A DNA stretch of 27,562 nucleotides from a virus. The notes under the pieces are model-generated. The model saw only the letters and a program-made list of their open reading frames with translations, was not told the origin of the DNA and made no database searches. Numbering within the stretch: the first letter of the stretch is position 1; each line of letters begins with the position of its first letter. Shown here one piece after another: positions 9,910 through 25,930 of this stretch. The translations under genes were made by a program, and so were the position numbers. The stretch lies in the IMG/VR virus record IMGVR_UViG_3300017752_000118, positions 1-27,562 of that record. The stretch is one strand, 5' to 3'.

Positions 9910-10110
9910 ATGGGACTAATAAATAAATTAACAAATACAAAAATAAATAACCCAATACTTTCTTCTAAAGATAATTTGGATATTAATGAAATATCACTTA
10001 TATTAAATCTAATTAAAAATTCTCCATTTAAGGGGGGTGATATAGAAATAATTTATAACCTAGTTATAAAATTACAAAACCAATATTCAAAATTAGAAAA
10101 TAATGTTTGA
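9910..10110 (+). CDS. Small protein, paralogue of its downstream neighbour
   Basis: A 66-residue protein of unknown function. Its core, NEISLILNLIKNSPFKGGDIEI followed by YNLVIKLQNQ (about residues 25-59), lines up with the core of the next gene (NEINVLIAALNAFHIKGADA, then YSIQIKLKEE). The pattern of a helix, a K-G-G/A-D turn and a second amphipathic helix ending in IKLQ/KE suggests a small two-helix bundle. It starts just after a strong terminator and lacks the TATTTATAA motif, so its transcription depends on read-through or on an unseen promoter. Its end overlaps the next start by 8 bases. The position between fibre and sheath genes suggests a minor tail or assembly factor, but that is only context. 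Confidence 0.7.
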   Translation: MGLINKLTNTKINNPILSSKDNLDINEISLILNLIKNSPFKGGDIEIIYNLVIKLQNQYSKLENNV

Positions 10111-10309
10111 CAAAAATGAAATTAATGTTTTAATAGCAGCTTTAAATGCTTTTCATATTAAAGGAGCAGATGCAGCTTATGTCTATTCAATTCAAATAAA
10201 ATTAAAAGAAGAATTAGAAAGACAAATAAAATTAGAAAAAGAAGAAGAAGAGAAAGTTAAATCAGGTCCTCCTGAATCTTTAGAAAAAAAAGAAAAAATT
10301 AAAAAATAA
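10103..10309 (+). CDS. Small protein, paralogue of its upstream neighbour
   Basis: A 68-residue protein. Residues 5-36 repeat the two-helix pattern of the upstream gene around FHIKGADAAYV. The rest (about 37-68) is a highly charged K/E tail, probably helical or disordered, that the neighbour lacks. The overlap of 8 bases indicates translational coupling and probably equal production, as in a heteromeric pair. I do not recognise a named family. Confidence 0.7.
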   Translation: MFDKNEINVLIAALNAFHIKGADAAYVYSIQIKLKEELERQIKLEKEEEEKVKSGPPESLEKKEKIKK

Positions 10310-12425: not shown

Positions 12426-12914
12426 ATGCCAGTATTAGATCCAAACGAAATATTTTTTACCGCTTTTGAACCAAAGCAAGCCAACAGGTTTATCCTTTAT
12501 ATGGATGGTATTCCAAGCTTTATTATTAAAGGAGTAGCAGCTGTAAATGTATCTCAAGGTACAGTAGCTTTAAATCATATCAATGTTCAAAGATATGTAA
12601 AAGGTAAAACCACTTGGGGAACAATATCAATGACATTATTTGATCCAATTACACCTTCAGGTGCTCAAGCAGTAATGGAATGGGTAAGATTACACCATGA
12701 ATCAGTTACTGGTAGAGATGGATACAGTGATTTCTATAAAAAGGATCTTACAGTTAATGTATTAGGACCAGTAGGTGATATTGTTTCTGAATGGGTAATA
12801 AAAGGTGCTTTAATTACTGAAGCTACATTTGGTGATTACAATTGGGATACTGAAAATGAAGCAAAAGAAATTGCTTTAACTGTTCAACCTGATTATTGTG
12901 TATTAAATTTCTAA
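12426..12914 (+). CDS. 19: Tail tube protein (gp19-like)
   Basis: A 162-residue protein that fits T4 gp19 (163 residues) in length. gp19 hexamers stack into the inner tube through which DNA passes. The expected order is visible: an N-terminal strand with the F-x-P-K-Q-A-N-R-F motif (about 14-22), corresponding to ARPNLF in T4; GKTTWGTISMTLFDPI (about 60-75), the strand before the conserved helix; AVMEWVRLHHESVTGRDGY with the helix and loop; KKDLTVNVLGPVGDIVSEWV; and the end GDYNWDTENEAKEIALTVQP, equivalent to LDWDSNNEIQTFEVTLALD in T4. It is preceded by the sheath gene and followed by a strong terminator, so it is the end of the sheath and tube unit. Confidence 0.93.
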   Translation: MPVLDPNEIFFTAFEPKQANRFILYMDGIPSFIIKGVAAVNVSQGTVALNHINVQRYVKGKTTWGTISMTLFDPITPSGAQAVMEWVRLHHESVTGRDGYSDFYKKDLTVNVLGPVGDIVSEWVIKGALITEATFGDYNWDTENEAKEIALTVQPDYCVLNF

Positions 12915-13013: not shown

Positions 13014-13739
13014 ATGGCCGAATTTAAATTTCCTACTGAAGAAGTAGAATTACCCTCAAAAGGATTAGTATACCCTAAAGACCACCCATTATCAAGTGGA
13101 AAAGTAGAAATAAAATATATGACTGCTAAAGAAGAAGATATTTTAACTAATCAAGCATACATAGAAAAAGGAATAGTTTTAGATAAATTATTAGAATCTG
13201 TTATTGTATCTAAAATTAATTTAAAAGATTTAATTATAGGTGATAAAAATGCAATATTTGTTGCTACTAGAATCTTAGGTTATGGAAAAGATTACACTTT
13301 TAGTTATTTAGGAGAAGATCAAAGCTTAGATTTAACAACTTTAAAAAATAAAGAATTTGATACCTCTTTAATTACTGAAGGGAAAAATGAATTTAAATAC
13401 AAATTACCTCATACAGGCAATGAAATTACTTTTAAAATATTAGATGGCTATGATGAAAGTAAAATTACTAGAGAATTAGAAGGTCTTAAAAAAATAAATA
13501 AAGATGCTTCACCTGATTTATCTACTAGATTAAAATATATAATAACCTCAGTAGGAGAAGAAACAGAACCTAAAGCTATAAGAGAATTTGTTGATAATTA
13601 CTTATTAGCAAGAGACTCTAGAGCTTTAAGAGAATACATTAATGAAGTCCAACCAGATATAGATTTAAATTTCATCAGTGATGATGGAGAGGAGGTAAGA
13701 GTCCCTATAGGACTCAACTTTTTTTGGCCTGACGTCTAA
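13014..13739 (+). CDS. 26: Baseplate hub assembly protein / tail assembly chaperone (gp26-like)
   Basis: A 241-residue protein resembling the T4 gp26 baseplate hub family as found in marine T4-like phages. Signature parts are FPTEEVELPSKGLVYPKDHP (5-24), VEIKYMTAKEEDILTNQ (31-47), DKLLESVIV, GDKNAIFVATRILGYGKDY (76-94) and the C-terminal DDGEEVRVPIGLNFFWPDV. An N-terminal LPSxG strand, an MTxxEEDIL helix and a carboxy-terminal P-x-x-x-x-FFWP motif are what I recall of this family. Its place between tail tube and tape measure is exactly where other long-tailed phages carry their frameshifted tail assembly chaperones. The last sense codons lie on a run of seven T (13719-13725) that overlaps a second open frame carrying the next entry. 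A chaperone role is inferred from position and architecture; gp26 in T4 is called a hub protein. Confidence 0.75.
   Translation: MAEFKFPTEEVELPSKGLVYPKDHPLSSGKVEIKYMTAKEEDILTNQAYIEKGIVLDKLLESVIVSKINLKDLIIGDKNAIFVATRILGYGKDYTFSYLGEDQSLDLTTLKNKEFDTSLITEGKNEFKYKLPHTGNEITFKILDGYDESKITRELEGLKKINKDASPDLSTRLKYIITSVGEETEPKAIREFVDNYLLARDSRALREYINEVQPDIDLNFISDDGEEVRVPIGLNFFWPDV
13719..13725 (+). other. T7 run, putative programmed frameshift site
   Basis: In the gp26 frame the codons are TTT TTT TGG CCT, four sense codons before the stop. A +1 slip, or a -2 slip with Phe-tRNA re-pairing on the T run, moves translation into the next frame, which is open from 13711 to the stop at 14017-14019. The shift would give a fusion of about 334 residues. 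Transcriptional slippage on the T run is another way to reach it. Confidence 0.6.
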
Positions 13740-14019
13740 TATAGTTCCTCAAGTTAGGGTTAATTTATTTACCCAAATACATCAAATATTATTTCATGGT
13801 AAAGGCGGTTATGATTATGCTACAGTATATAACATGCCTACATGGTTAAGAAAATTTACTTTATCAGAAATTCAAAAATTCTATGATAATGAAAAAAAAG
13901 AATATGATAAAGCTAACAATGAAGGTAAATCAAATCTTTTAAATTCAGATGGTACAGCTAATGTTCCAGCATTTGCACAAGCTTCTAAACCTTACCAAGG
14001 TAAAAGTTCATATAAATAA
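13726..14019 (+). CDS. Second-frame extension of the gp26-like gene (gp51-like / chaperone T-like)
   Basis: This frame encodes GLTSNIVPQVRVNLFTQIHQ, then ILFHGKGGYDYATVYNMPTW and LRKFTLSEIQKFYDNEKKEY, with an N/S-rich tail. Between the in-frame stop at 13708-13710 and the ATG at 13834 there is no ATG, GTG or TTG codon, although the residues there read as a continuous structured domain (an L-F-x-Q-I-H-Q-I-L-F-H helix, then G-K-G-G-Y). The ATG at 13834 would make a 61-residue protein starting inside that domain, with no visible ribosome site. The simplest reading is that the frame is entered by frameshifting from the gp26-like gene, yielding a long and a short product, as with the gpG/gpGT chaperones of lambda-type tails. 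In T4 the gene conventionally paired with 26 is 51. A stand-alone short protein from 13834 is the alternative. Confidence 0.6.
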   Translation, partial: GLTSNIVPQVRVNLFTQIHQILFHGKGGYDYATVYNMPTWLRKFTLSEIQKFYDNEKKEYDKANNEGKSNLLNSDGTANVPAFAQASKPYQGKSSYK

Positions 14020-14056: not shown

Positions 14057-17000
14057 ATGACCGAAGCAGAAGAATTACAAAAAATTCAAGAAGAACTTAA
14101 AAAAGTTTTAAATCTAAAACAAACCGTAAGAGATTTAGGTAGGGAAGATACTGAAACTTATAAAGAAACTTTACAAGATTTACAAAAACAAAATGCTTCG
14201 TTAGAACAATTCCAACAATTACAAAAATCAATAAATAGAGATTTAATTGAAGCTCAATCTGCAATTAATGGCATTAGAGATGCTTTTGCAGCATCTGTAA
14301 ATGAGTTAACTGGCATGAATGCTGGTTTAAATAGGGCTAAAAAATCATTTAGGGGATTAGAAAGTTTAGCAGATAAATTATCTAATGATCAGGCTGATAT
14401 ATCTAGAATGAGTATAAAAGAACTTAAAACTATAGAAGAAAAAGTTCTAAAAAGACAACAAGAATTAAAAGTAGCTGAATTTTCTTTACAAAATGAAGTA
14501 GATAATTTAAAATCCCAAAAAAATCTTAGTAATAAAGAAAAAGAAAAATTAAAAATAAAGCAAGCAGCTTTAAATGCTACTCAACAAGAACTCTCAGATT
14601 TTGAAAAAGGAATAGGCCTTTCCAAAGCTTTAATAGACCAAGCTAAAAATAGGATAGAAGCTGAAGAAACAATAATTAAAACTATGGGTATGGCTCCAGC
14701 CCTATTAGAGGGGATAGGGAAAGCTTTACAAAAAATTGGATTACCTGATTTTGGAGTAGCAGAAGCAGTTCAAAACACTAAAGATATTATTAGGTTAAAA
14801 AATGAAGAACTCGATTTAGCTAGAAAAATTAAAATAGAAGCAACTCAAGAAAATTTTGAACGACTCGCTAGAGCAGGAGCATCTAAAAAAAGGCTTAAAT
14901 TTGAGTTAGATAAACTTAATAAACTTAAAAAAACAGAAGCTGAAAGAGTTAGTAGTTTGGGAGCTTTATCTATACTGGTAGGTCAAGTAGGGCAAAAACT
15001 TAAAGATCAATTTACAACAGCAAATCTAACCCAGGGAGCTATTACTTTACTAGTTTCTACGATGATGCAATTAGATAATTTATCTGGTAAACTTGCTAAA
15101 AACATTGGAATAAGCTATGATGAAAGTCTAGCTATGCAAAAGAATTTTAATCAAATTGCATTAACTTCTGACCGTATAATGGTTAGTACTTCTAATTTAA
15201 ATGCAGCTTTTACATCATTAAATCAAAGATTTCAAGGAGCAACAGGTTTTAGCAATGAAATGCTTGAATCTTTCACAGCATTAACAAAACAAGCAGGATT
15301 TTCAGAAGAAGCTGTTGGTAATTTAGCAGTAATAACGGGCACACAAGGAAAAGAATTAGAAAATAATTTAGCTTTAATGCAGGGTCAGTTAACTGTAATG
15401 AATGCCCAAAATGGTACTTCATTTAGTGAAAAACAATTACTTGAAGGTATAGGTAAAATAAGTAAAGCTACACTATTAACATTAAGAAATCAACCTAAAG
15501 CATTAACTAGAACTTTGATGACATCATCTAAATTAGTTTTATCTTTTCAAGAAATGGAAAATATAGCTTCTAATTTATTAGATTTTGAGGGTTCTATTGG
15601 TGCAGAATTAGAAGCAGAATTACTTACAGGTAAACAAATAAATTTAGAATCTGCAAGATTATTAGCATTAAAAGGAGATATAGCGGGAGCAGCCGCTGAG
15701 GTAGCTAAAGAAGTAGGATCGGCAGCTGAATTTGAAAAAATGAATGTAATTCAGCAAGAAGCCCTTGCTAAAGCAGCAGGATTAACGCGAGAACAGCTAG
15801 CAAGCAGTTTAATGGAGCGAGAGGCACTAGTTAAATTAGGAGGCCAGGATAAAACAGCTTTAGAAGCTTATAATAGATTAAAAGCAAAGGGATTATCTGA
15901 TGAGGCAATAGCAACTAAATTAGGAGATAAAAAATTAGCAGACCAATTAAAATCTCAATCAGTTCAAGAAAGATTTACAGCTTCTGTTGAAAGACTTAAA
16001 GAACTATTTGTAGATGTAAGTACAGCTATAATGCCCATAGTATCGTTAATTGCTGATGCTGTCGCAGGTGTAGCTAAATTAGTAACTAAATTTCCAACAG
16101 TAACTAAAGCTATAGTTGGAGCTGTTTTAGCTTTGAAAGTTTATAAATCTTTGACTGGGGGGATAGGAAAATTAAATAATTTAAATTTACTCACAAAATT
16201 AAAAGAATATAAATTACAATTAGGACTTGGCAACCTATTCAAAAAGGGATATATTCAAGCAAAAGCCGCTTACATTTTAAATAAATTAGGATTAGTAACA
16301 GATAAACAAGCAGCATTTTTTAAAGGAAGAATAACATTTTTCCAAAAAGCAAGTAATAAAACAGCAAAAAATAATTTAATGTATGAAAATGCTAGTTTAT
16401 TTGCTGTTTTAAAAAGAAATATAGCTGAAAAAGCAGGAAATGCTCTTAAATTTATAGGACTACAATTTACTAAAGAGGGTTATATTTATCAAGGTTTAAT
16501 ATTCATAAAAGAACAAGCCATAAATGCCTTAAGAGTTATAGGAAATGCTTTAGGTCTTACTTCATTAAGTACTACAGTAGCTGAAGGTGCTGCTGAAACT
16601 GTAATAACAACAAATAAAGCAGCCCAAAATACTAGTATGATAGGGTTAATTGCTAAAGGCCTTACTTATTTGGGGGTATTAATAGCACAAGCAGCAGCAG
16701 CTATAACAACAATATCAGTAGAAACACTTGGTATTGGTACTATAATAGGATTAGCGGCAGCCGCAGCTGGTATAGCTATTTTGTATAGCATGACTAAACC
16801 TAAAAAAGCAGGGGATATGATGGGTAATGCAGATGGTAAAACCCAAGTATCACCTGCAGAAGGAGGATTATTTGAATTATCCAATAATGATCAATTTATA
16901 GCAGCCCCTGGAGTTGCAGATGCTGTTACTGGAAGAAATAGAAATCAAAGAAGAGAAAAAAGGCAACAAAGAAGAGAACAAAGAAGAGAACAAAGACAAA

Positions 17001-17140
17001 ATGATAATGTCAAACTAGAACAAAGTATGAATAAAACCAATAAAATTTTAGAAGTAGTAGCTGCTAATTTAAGACCTAAACCATTACTAGGAAGTGAATC
17101 TGGGCAAGCTATTCACAATGGAACATACAACGTACAATAA
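14057..17140 (+). CDS. Tail tape measure protein
   Basis: A 1027-residue protein with the composition of a tape measure: residues 1-290 are almost wholly helical and coiled-coil (rich in Q, E, K and L), as needed to span the tube lumen. A middle region (about 295-650) with QLDNLSGKLAKNIGISYDES resembles phage tape measure cores. Two hydrophobic stretches (about 654-693 and 861-912) can insert in membrane at DNA ejection, and a C-terminal segment SPAEGGLFELSNNDQFIAAP precedes a short Arg-rich stretch at about 958-981. The EGG-x-F-x-x-x-x-N-D pattern resembles the EGGIV end element of other tape measures. The protein governs tail length and helps DNA entry. It lies directly after the gp26/gp51-like assembly genes, the usual chaperone-then-tape order. 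In T4 the equivalent is gp29; sequence homology to it is not evident by eye. Confidence 0.85.
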   Translation: MTEAEELQKIQEELKKVLNLKQTVRDLGREDTETYKETLQDLQKQNASLEQFQQLQKSINRDLIEAQSAINGIRDAFAASVNELTGMNAGLNRAKKSFRGLESLADKLSNDQADISRMSIKELKTIEEKVLKRQQELKVAEFSLQNEVDNLKSQKNLSNKEKEKLKIKQAALNATQQELSDFEKGIGLSKALIDQAKNRIEAEETIIKTMGMAPALLEGIGKALQKIGLPDFGVAEAVQNTKDIIRLKNEELDLARKIKIEATQENFERLARAGASKKRLKFELDKLNKLKKTEAERVSSLGALSILVGQVGQKLKDQFTTANLTQGAITLLVSTMMQLDNLSGKLAKNIGISYDESLAMQKNFNQIALTSDRIMVSTSNLNAAFTSLNQRFQGATGFSNEMLESFTALTKQAGFSEEAVGNLAVITGTQGKELENNLALMQGQLTVMNAQNGTSFSEKQLLEGIGKISKATLLTLRNQPKALTRTLMTSSKLVLSFQEMENIASNLLDFEGSIGAELEAELLTGKQINLESARLLALKGDIAGAAAEVAKEVGSAAEFEKMNVIQQEALAKAAGLTREQLASSLMEREALVKLGGQDKTALEAYNRLKAKGLSDEAIATKLGDKKLADQLKSQSVQERFTASVERLKELFVDVSTAIMPIVSLIADAVAGVAKLVTKFPTVTKAIVGAVLALKVYKSLTGGIGKLNNLNLLTKLKEYKLQLGLGNLFKKGYIQAKAAYILNKLGLVTDKQAAFFKGRITFFQKASNKTAKNNLMYENASLFAVLKRNIAEKAGNALKFIGLQFTKEGYIYQGLIFIKEQAINALRVIGNALGLTSLSTTVAEGAAETVITTNKAAQNTSMIGLIAKGLTYLGVLIAQAAAAITTISVETLGIGTIIGLAAAAAGIAILYSMTKPKKAGDMMGNADGKTQVSPAEGGLFELSNNDQFIAAPGVADAVTGRNRNQRREKRQQRREQRREQRQNDNVKLEQSMNKTNKILEVVAANLRPKPLLGSESGQAIHNGTYNVQ

Positions 17141-24000: not shown

Positions 24001-24779
24001 ATTTAGAGATAATTAGAAAAAGTGGAAATTTAGGTGAACTTTTTAAAAATGACTCAGCCTTAAAAGAACTTCAGACCCCTATTGAAGTTTTTGGATATAG
24101 TACCTTACCTGGGTTTGAAGGTAGTGCAGCCTTTACTAGGAATGTAGGAATAACTACAGAAATAAGTAAAAACTATGCCACAGCTATAACTATTGGGGCA
24201 ACAGCTAATGGTGAAGTACCAGGGATGGAATCTACAGCTTTTTCAAGGTGGAATATAGGTTTAGTTGATAGGTTTAAAGAAAATTTAACTGATGGAGAAA
24301 ATAAAGTTACTGAACCAACCCCATTAGATAAATCAAACGAGCAAATTATTTCAAACTACAAAGCATTTATTAGTTCAGGTTATACTAAATTAGGGTTTAG
24401 TCGAAAAAGTCAAGACCTTACGATAAATGGAGATTATATTAGTACTAATAAGAATGTAGTTAAGAATTTTTATAGTTATGCTCAAGCAGAAACTACTTTA
24501 CAAAATTACGATTCTGGGTCTAATCAAGGTATAATTGAAAGTTCACTTGGTTTTTTGCCTATAAATTTAAAAATAGATATGGATGGTTTAGGGGGAATTA
24601 GAATTTATGACTTTGTAAAAATTAATACTTCATTTTTACCTTCAAACTATCCCCAAACTTTAGAATTTATATGTACAGGAGTAAATCATAAATTAGTAAA
24701 TAATGATTGGGTTACTAGTTTAAAAACAATAGCTACTTACACAGATAAGGGAAGCAAATCAACTTCGGCAACATCATGA
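21042..24779 (+). CDS. Large baseplate hub-like protein
   Basis: A 1245-residue protein. Conserved-looking blocks are SALNSRNAWVKLASSVVV (about 45-62); SPMPGIVDIDITDLNRGS and KLNIKCHNRAQFDVIDVLYL; and LGYTVCLEWGWNQYID (about 164-223). Together they read as a hub-type beta-barrel with an inserted helix. C-terminal residues 1185-1245 (GLGGIRIYDFVKINTSFLPS, FICTGVNHKLVNNDWVTSLK) resemble the last beta-domain of phage hub proteins, where TGVxHxIxNNxWxTSLxT is typical. The middle has long acidic and Asn-rich stretches (about 630-700). It begins 11 bases after the LysM gene, and its TGA overlaps the amidase ATG. Such a protein could combine the roles that T4 splits between gp27 and gp5, with the lysin as a separate gene; this is inferred from order and pattern. 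Confidence 0.6.
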   Translation: MANLLGSPFRKYVNETVTTRQRVSGLTDKKLNYNPNSPRSLEVISALNSRNAWVKLASSVVVEPNRLNILKKNYINNPLIDNVNPGIDLAIQNVLQGGLVSKGTDKYNESSLGLQEFDSQYPETWRETVNNSINFSTDHRSGILGYNANPAYGVGGLEFGYSPMPGIVDIDITDLNRGSIKKSKLNIKCHNRAQFDVIDVLYLRLGYTVCLEWGWNQYIDVNNETGEIYPVYLGNTLIDDEFWKIKNEEYSDFLEKIENKRKLYKGNYDGIIGVISNFSWDFQPDGTYDIRLEITSLGDVIESLKVNLPPLVKSKNDPYAESRFKELLDELKSRATTEDEFYNVLYPGLRDELSIIYDSLNQYVENNIPIFSFTSISTSNLIDNPHLLCSLDQSINIPPIRWENVANVNGIRDRLSPIVGDKFDWGHIFGANPINLGSKGGVVQAKLGPDIKNIRGEDSGDHIGSINSNSWTLYRSPSDANIEDLSSSHFSRVDTPMTVTATDTSIVYKKDGKWQRSSFLRSKTLLYSTLTGYESTDYEFPQSVIQSFDEYFLIGWTSPTQEVKNLNYIGGFLGDFKWFENDNEVTWLDLLSRPVDSNKSLFAYYGKPQFLTLFYNWAIFNGYAGGKGDDLIQSANDKEEEDDNELSDRDKELSQQILEFKNSTERSKFKNKINNYFFNVRDLHADSTYNLKIYDPWTFSNPPDDGDDDALVLNDGTLIGDYRTYGTYGSEEANEDFTNMGALAGDKYITLEGPKFKATSTQNGKIYMDKVGAALNFITNWNTDIGFPTYPYSGDGLFKDEIGKHPIDFFKLDFQPIRDSYFIRFKVLLNYINDFLIPKKKTKSNNQPIIQINTETKTNICYTIDNVISVNPRKVIIKNSKFYTNQNSSQKNIYEKIYPELENFHVHGGDGKEEFRYGQIMNVYFNFNRVEEIFNSVDKNNQVSLFTVLKSLCDDINESLGSINNIEPVIDKDLNEIQLIDQTSIPNLEIIRKSGNLGELFKNDSALKELQTPIEVFGYSTLPGFEGSAAFTRNVGITTEISKNYATAITIGATANGEVPGMESTAFSRWNIGLVDRFKENLTDGENKVTEPTPLDKSNEQIISNYKAFISSGYTKLGFSRKSQDLTINGDYISTNKNVVKNFYSYAQAETTLQNYDSGSNQGIIESSLGFLPINLKIDMDGLGGIRIYDFVKINTSFLPSNYPQTLEFICTGVNHKLVNNDWVTSLKTIATYTDKGSKSTSATS

Positions 24780-25930
24780 TAAAAAATAATAGCATAATAA
24801 ACACACCTAAATTATTGCAGAATGCTTTATCTTTAAAATCAGAAAGTGATGGTCAAACTTCATCTTCCCCTGTAGTAACTTTAACAAAAGAAGAAATTGA
24901 AAAAGAGCAACAAGAAAAGCTTAGAACTATAGGGGCTGAAAGAGGAACCTATATAGAAACTAATTCTAATAATGTTAATACTAATACTGATACTTTAGAA
25001 GATGGAGAATTTTGGACAAAAGCCGCAGACAAAAAAGAAGCTTTACAATCTGGACGTTGGGATAAATCAAAACCAAATGGTTATAAAATAGGTCAAAATC
25101 AAATAGGAGGAAAATATGCCCCTTTCAAGATGAAAACTATTTCTATGATTATTTTACACCATACAGCTACAATGCGTACAGTTAAATATGAACAAGAAAA
25201 ATTTTCTAAAAAATCAATTTCATCTAATGCCATAATTGGTGTAGATGGTCAAATTGAATATGTTGTTCCACTTCCTTTCATAGCTAATGCCCAAGGAATG
25301 AATCTTTTTAATAATGGTAGAGAAAATGTAAAAGGAAGATTTAATACTCTTTGTACTTCAGTTGAGCTTACTAATGTAGGATATTTAAATAAAGAAACTA
25401 CAAAACAAGGTAAAACCTATTGGAGCAGAGGTAATTATGAATATGAAGAATCCTTAGTTTCTCAGGCATATGACTTTAATGGAAATCCTCTTAAACTATA
25501 TAAATCAGCTAAAAGATGTTTAGAATATACAGATGTCCAACTTAATGCTATGGTAAAATGGATTAAAAAACAACAGAATTATATAGCTGAAAATTACCCT
25601 GAAAATTCAGAAATTTTAAATTGGAAATTTACTCAAGAAACGTATAATCAAATGTTTCCTAATTTTCAATCTAAAAAACTTCCAAAATCATTTAAAAGCA
25701 AAGGAGGAAAATATTTTGATGGACCTAACAATGAATATTTAATAGCAGGAATGACTAGAAAAAAAGATAATGGGAAAGCATATAATTCAAACAAATATGG
25801 GTTTGCTGTTAGTAAGGATGCTTGGGACTATAAACCAGGAATATATAGTCATAATTCAATAGATGCAGGTAAATCTGATGTTTTTCCTACTAAAAAAATG
25901 GTAGAATGTTTAAAAAATAATTTTGGATAA
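24776..25930 (+). CDS. Tail-associated N-acetylmuramoyl-L-alanine amidase (amidase_2 / PGRP-like)
   Basis: A 384-residue enzyme predicted to cleave the amide bond between N-acetylmuramic acid and the stem peptide of peptidoglycan. The catalytic domain spans about 118-384. MIILHHTAT holds the first zinc ligand (HH at 128-129), SSNAIIGVDGQIEYVVP is the expected strand and hairpin, CTSVELTNVG contains the conserved Glu (197), and the C-terminal SHNSIDAGKSDVFP supplies the second His (359), a catalytic Lys (366) and the third ligand as Asp (368), where T7 lysozyme has Cys. All key residues are present, so it should be active. Residues 1-115 are a charged, Asn/Gln-rich extension that could anchor it in the tail. 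There is no signal peptide or transmembrane segment. Its start overlaps the hub stop (ATGA), which argues for a virion-bound lysin opening the wall during entry rather than a late-lysis endolysin. Confidence 0.88.
   Translation: MIKNNSIINTPKLLQNALSLKSESDGQTSSSPVVTLTKEEIEKEQQEKLRTIGAERGTYIETNSNNVNTNTDTLEDGEFWTKAADKKEALQSGRWDKSKPNGYKIGQNQIGGKYAPFKMKTISMIILHHTATMRTVKYEQEKFSKKSISSNAIIGVDGQIEYVVPLPFIANAQGMNLFNNGRENVKGRFNTLCTSVELTNVGYLNKETTKQGKTYWSRGNYEYEESLVSQAYDFNGNPLKLYKSAKRCLEYTDVQLNAMVKWIKKQQNYIAENYPENSEILNWKFTQETYNQMFPNFQSKKLPKSFKSKGGKYFDGPNNEYLIAGMTRKKDNGKAYNSNKYGFAVSKDAWDYKPGIYSHNSIDAGKSDVFPTKKMVECLKNNFG

Follow-up and report, generated by a model that had tools for sequence, protein, structure and literature searches.

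How is a frame that has no start codon of its own translated behind a gp26-like gene? The question is raised by one locus of the window (the whole stretch of 27,562 nucleotides of a marine phage that was analysed), whose features all lie on the + strand. The short gp26-type gene (ORF1, 13014-13739) encodes 241 aa, matches phrog_150 "baseplate hub" with E 7e-8 and ends with AAC TTT TTT TGG CCT GAC GTC TAA, in which the run of seven T occupies 13719-13725 and the stop codon TAA 13737-13739. A second frame (ORF2; 102 codons) is open from 13711 to 14019 with an offset of +1, equivalently -2, relative to ORF1, and it contains zero ATG, GTG or TTG codons ahead of its first ATG at 13834-13836. The preliminary description had noticed this slip-site end and the overlapping start-less frame, and both were confirmed as written. 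It had also placed the pair between tube and tape measure genes, where the known tail assembly chaperones (TACs) are encoded, and this holds as well: a tail tube protein (12426-12914; phrog_4542 tail tube, E 6e-22; Phage_T4_gp19, E 3e-4) lies before the gp26-like gene, and a tape measure protein of 1027 aa (14057-17140), recognized by position and length and by its equivalent in Flavobacterium phage immuto, annotated as tail tape measure protein, lies behind it. The same gene order is found in immuto and in Microcystis phage Mel-JY01.

The locus is very probably the TAC gene of a T4-type contractile-tailed phage, in which a +1 programmed ribosomal frameshift would yield TAC-N of 241 residues together with TAC-NC, a predicted fusion of 334 residues (13014-14019) whose TAC-C domain (13726-14016) is a C-terminal extension without its own start codon. 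Sequence comparison supports the translation of the +1 frame ahead of any start, the conserved site, the conserved upstream elements and the membership in the gp26/gp51 family, while we infer the mechanism as +1, a stimulating action of the upstream elements, the ratio of the two products and their function as chaperones.

With the start-less ORF2 as tblastn query, relatives (immuto, Mel-JY01 and the uncultured 484-kb phage L003) were aligned from query residue 2-3, which is 5' of any start codon. From IMG/VR, 40 more loci were retrieved by the ORF2 query and 80 by ORF1 alone, the latter showing the +1 arrangement likewise, and wherever the site is conserved in these loci, the second frame lies in +1. 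We then considered all loci from public viral contigs and phage genomes, some of which were retrieved by queries containing ORF2 or the T-run, and these comprise 172 distinct alleles with TTT[T/C]TTTGGCC. It turned out that at least 50 open codons are present in the +1 frame in 172 of 172 alleles and in the -1 frame in 0 of 172; judged from these alleles, the overlap is far beyond chance. A sequencing error in the T-run is ruled out by the 172 distinct +1 alleles, which include TTTCTTT alleles without a long run. Generally, the slip site is TTTTTTT (170 alleles), with TTTCTTT in the other 2, and the P-site codon is able to re-pair one base forward as UUU_U in 170 of 172 and as CUU_U in 2 of 172. 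Among 57 alleles, the Phe-Phe codons are TTT TTT in 55 and TTT CTT, the second encoding Leu, in 2, and Pro239 is CCT in all 57. In the window TTTTTTTGGCCTGA exists as a single copy, and 0 of 100 shuffles have one.

Upstream of the site, the coding sequence contains a Shine-Dalgarno-like (SD-like) AGGAGG (13690-13695), which lies 23 nt before the T-run within a conserved GAG-GAG: Glu226 is GAG in 48 of 48 alleles and Glu227 in 50 of 53, when GAG makes up 17% of Glu codons. AGGAGG is found in 47 of 57 alleles, 45 of them at one position, against an expectation of 0.001 per 40 nt. A scan with the pattern AGGAGG-N16-28-TTTTTTTGGCCTGA, in which neither ORF2 nor a hairpin is required, gave at least 120 matches and at least 89 distinct alleles, all with a +1 ORF2 (one ending at a contig edge); among the matches listed, ORF1 ends within 36 nt and the spacing is 23, 26 or, once, 27. 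The combined alleles contain AGGAGG in 159 of 172, a share inflated in part since one scan required the motif. In the window and the loci L141-L235, the distance from AGGAGG to the T-run takes two main values, 23 and 26 nt, one codon apart. AGGAGG is also frequent elsewhere, with 20 copies on both strands of the window (9.5 expected; 0 of 100 shuffles reach 20), mostly on the + strand and inside genes.

Between AGGAGG and the T-run lies a putative 5' hairpin, GAGUCC-CUAUA-GGACUC (13699-13715), 3 nt before the T-run, which was identified by folding energy and covariation. Over 57 alleles its mean minimum free energy is -5.52 kcal/mol, compared with -4.37 (sd 0.19) after permutation, within columns, of the codons of each amino acid (0 of 300 reach the observed value) and with -2.40 for random synonymous codons (0 of 200); other windows of ORF1 have mean folding energies from -0.4 to -2.2. 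Besides, Val GTC occurs with Gly GGA or GGC in 17 of 17 cases and GTG with GGG in 13 of 13, where the energy and covariation statistics alike ignore kinship among the alleles. An energy of -4 kcal/mol or lower is reached in 116 of 172 alleles, mostly with the 3' base 0-5 nt from the T-run, and the hairpin is absent or weak in about one third. The case for it is a comparative one, because the hairpin of the window taken alone is unremarkable against shuffles (z -1.36). By inspection, the corresponding region of L003 has GAGGAGG and an inverted repeat CGCATCC-CGTT-GGATGCG. On the 3' side no conserved stimulator was found in the 57 alleles, in which the mean folding energy behind the site is close to the level of ORF1 elsewhere. 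The conserved AGGAGG and hairpin are candidates for the stimulatory element.

The preliminary description had left the direction as +1 or -2. A shift into the second frame is supported, and of the two directions +1 is better supported than -2. A +1 slip would use the site UUU UUU UGG C (13719-13728), where the tRNA on the P-site UUU (13722-13724) moves one base forward and GGC at 13726-13728 is decoded next. In a -2 shift as in phage Mu, the tRNA-Phe on the second UUU would move back two bases and the fusion would have 335 aa. The two frames are identical, TTTTTTT permits UUU re-pairing two bases back in 170 of 172 alleles, and Mu TACs do use -2 (PMC5009743); the TTTCTTT alleles have one first-position U-G pair under +1 and -2 alike. 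The sites of L003 (AAC TTT CTA TTC) and of Streptococcus phage GXN1 (GAA TTC TTT CGT), however, offer cognate re-pairing for +1 and none for -2, and a conserved 3' structure is not seen in the 57 alleles. A hairpin upstream of the site and beside the E site favours +1 and weakens -1 frameshifting on 70S ribosomes (PMC6321510), and a forward slip agrees with the 5' hairpin and the SD-like element conserved here. Because of the conserved 5' hairpin, the L003 and GXN1 sites and the likeness of UUU UGG C (CUU UGG C in two alleles) to the prfB site CUU UGA C, we infer the +1 direction from sequence and regard -2 as unlikely.

The second frame could also be a separate gene that starts at ATG 13834 or, close to the gp26 stop, at a start that is non-standard or coupled, and in GenBank it is annotated in this way: the extension is a separate hypothetical gene in both immuto (L001 3839-3949, immuto35A_232) and Mel-JY01 (L002 3737-3973). 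In immuto most of the domain is missed because the gene was called from a downstream ATG, and in Mel-JY01 the annotated start lies upstream, inside the overlap. The column of ATG 13834 is indeed ATG in 51 of 57 alleles, but it is TTA, TTT, CTT or CTA in the other 6, and no conserved position of an upstream start codon exists among the 57 alleles, 20 of which have no ATG, GTG or TTG ahead of this column, while an ATG 5' of the slip within the open +1 stretch is found in only 1. For the stretch between the ORF1 stop and ATG 13834 (23 codons, 53 gapless alleles), dN/dS is 0.078 in the +1 frame and 1.4 and 2.5 in the other frames, which is strong purifying selection on the +1 frame upstream of the ATG. 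The low +1 dN/dS, the variable ATG and the lack of a conserved upstream start indicate that this region is translated, though not from a conserved start. The ATG is accordingly read as the internal Met of VYNMP in the conserved sequence GLTx..R..F.QIH.I.FHGKGGYDY..VYNMP.WLRKFT. A separate gene would in addition leave the conservation of the T-run, AGGAGG and hairpin unexplained, and with dN/dS and the non-conserved ATG ruling out a separate downstream gene, we consider this reading extremely improbable. The preliminary description had seen a coherent domain across ATG 13834, and the +1 coding constraint reaches upstream of the ATG. The comparison with relatives that it proposed came out in its favour, in that the T-run (T7 in 170 of 172) and the second frame (172 of 172) are kept and the ATG is not fully kept, and the conserved upstream ATG that it named as contrary evidence is absent from the relatives. 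Its fusion of about 334 residues beside the 241-residue form gains comparative support as well, and an in-frame fusion was found in none of the loci examined.

Transcriptional slippage on T7, in which the mRNA would lose or gain a base and ordinary translation would give the fusion, fits the T7 of 170 of 172 alleles and is nonetheless scarcely credible, as the +1 arrangement persists in the TTTCTTT alleles, L003 and GXN1, where no long run exists, and the RNA elements conserved upstream speak for an event on the ribosome.

Membership of TAC-N in the T4 gp26/gp51 family is supported by profile and sequence matches. Among the 43 relatives scanned, every one matches phrog_150 and 19 match Pfam T4_baseplate (PF12322; best E 3e-8), a family that is reached through relatives only, with no direct Pfam match of the window's own protein. 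Both T4 gp26 and gp51 match phrog_150, gp51 over 13-280. The fused sequence matches it over 10-278 of 282 with 37.6 bits, and ORF1 alone over 10-185 with 33.2 bits, a gain of +4.4 bits for the fusion. The AlphaFold model of ORF1 has a pLDDT of 90.8, and its best viral matches include the baseplate hub subunit of Bacillus phage SP-15 and T4-like hub assembly proteins. In the PDB, its best matches are YqbN (3klu; Z 4.8, rmsd 4.0, 88 aligned), which we take to be a member of the XkdN-like TAC family, and the HK97 tail assembly chaperone (2ob9; Z 4.7, rmsd 5.5, 98 aligned), both of which are weak with Z under 8. ORF2 modelled apart from ORF1 has a middling pLDDT of 72, and its model has no significant structural match. 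With hhalign, neither TAC-C alone against -1-type TAC-Cs (E 0.15) nor the fusion against gp51 (E 0.85, in the register expected) gave a significant score.

T4 itself has genes 26 and 51 as separate genes on opposite strands; frameshifting is said to occur in several T4-like groups. We checked the direction in T4-type relatives. A T6-T7 run with the extension in -1 exists in two cyanophages, Methylophilales phage Melnitz-2, Aeh1, LPCS28, Ps15, phiM12, VmeM-32, Vibrio phage 1.081.O and two giant rhizobial phages, and -1 applies to the Straboviridae, cyanophage and rhizobial relatives checked. An extension in +1, like that of the window, exists in Rhodothermus phage RM378, Listeria phage LIS04, Streptococcus phage GXN1 and the uncultured L003. 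In the two sets, one homologous gene is shifted by -1 in some T4-type phages and by +1 in others at the same Phe-Phe, so that lineages differ in direction and the fusion product, rather than the direction, appears to be conserved. In LIS04 (L005), GXN1 (L129) and RM378 (L004), the +1 extension after the gp26-like gene is unannotated or annotated separately. Of two uncultured phages, the 595-kb L006 (LR756511) has the extension after its gp26-like gene in -1 and the 484-kb L003 in +1.

The preliminary description took the link between gp26-type proteins and frameshifted chaperones to be undescribed. This unification was anticipated, because TAC genes of T4-like phages had already been identified in a 2022 paper (Vladimirov, Gautam and Davidson, Virology 2022, 566:9-15). 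According to a 2016 review, tailed phages use -1, -2 or +1 for the chaperone pair, G-T frameshifting is widely conserved with T4 excepted, and +1 among TACs was reported as very likely in archaeal HSTV-2 (PMC5009743). Among open-licence papers, there is no report of the +1 direction in the T4-like lineage or of the AGGAGG-hairpin signal. What appears to be new is therefore the +1 direction and the upstream signal in T4 relatives, frameshifted T4-like TACs being known already. The locus shares with T4-like TACs the homologous TAC-N (phrog_150), the extension in another frame, the slip at the terminal FF and the place before the tape measure gene; those checked have a -1 extension, whereas the window has +1 with AGGAGG, often joined by a hairpin in relatives. 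With lambda gpG/gpGT, P2, HK97 and Mu it shares the place between tube and tape measure and two chaperone forms, short and long, that a frameshift yields from a single start, but lambda uses -1 and Mu -2, and sequence similarity is not detectable. TACs of Vandenendeviridae and Andersonviridae (PMC12846349) are alike in gene position, poly-T site and a downstream frame that annotations had long wrongly treated as a gene of its own; they differ in a -1 shift at GTTTTT, and the available part of that report describes no upstream hairpin or SD element.

In the proposed mechanism, the majority of ribosomes would terminate at 13737 and give TAC-N. In a minority, translation would stall while the P site holds tRNA-Phe on UUU 13722-13724 and the A site holds UGG; the P-site tRNA-Phe would re-pair one base forward, and GGC 13726-13728 would be read next, giving TAC-NC. 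The slip is probably promoted by AGGAGG and, in many relatives, by the hairpin with its end 0-5 nt ahead of the T-run, through refolding or base pairing where the mRNA leaves the ribosome. If the pair works as gpG/gpGT of lambda do, TAC-N in many copies and TAC-NC in few would cover the tape measure and bring in the tube subunits.

The nearest parallel to the signal is prfB (RF2) of F. johnsoniae (AGGAGGUAUCUUUGAC), which shares an upstream AGGAGGU, a U-rich P-site codon and the +1 direction, with UGA in the A site where the window has UGG, and probably a similar type of host (PMC8710568). It differs in that its A-site codon is a stop rather than a sense codon, in gene and purpose, and in distance: the SD of prfB lies 3 nt from the P-site codon and that of dnaX (-1) acts at 8-14 nt, whereas AGGAGG lies 26 nt from the P-site codon here, often with a hairpin between. 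This is too far for any known SD effect there and counts against our explanation. A hairpin lying between would cut the distance, but a third of the alleles have none.

A host among the Bacteroidota is presumed, since the isolates nearest to the window are phages of Flavobacterium and a check by eye of the 19 larger genes showed no strong SD motif in front of any start. Bacteroidota ribosomes largely ignore Shine-Dalgarno sequences at initiation, and their anti-SD is occluded, which for this presumed host counts against AGGAGG acting. To a broader proposal we give an even chance: Bacteroidota phages would carry a distinct cassette, made up of AGGAGG at a constant distance of 23 or 26 nt, in many cases a hairpin with covariation, and UUUUUUUGGC, in which the anti-SD during elongation and the refolding 5' hairpin would push ribosomes by +1; at the homologous position, +1 would have taken the place of the -1 shift found in other T4-type chaperone genes. 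The locus raises the question of a strong SD-like motif acting in elongation where hosts start translation without SD. The alleles also provide many natural examples of what may be a +1 signal preceded by a hairpin, a kind known among open-licence papers mainly from engineered constructs before. The annotation is corrected too, because the second frame of the relatives has been annotated as a separate hypothetical gene.

Elsewhere in the window, two adjacent short overlapping ORFs (9910-10110 and 10103-10309) resemble diverged copies of each other (NEI..I...I..FKGGD/IKGAD..Y...IKL). Within the baseplate gene cluster, the protein of 24776-25930 contains an IILHHTATMR-like motif, which is suggestive of N-acetylmuramoyl-L-alanine amidase.
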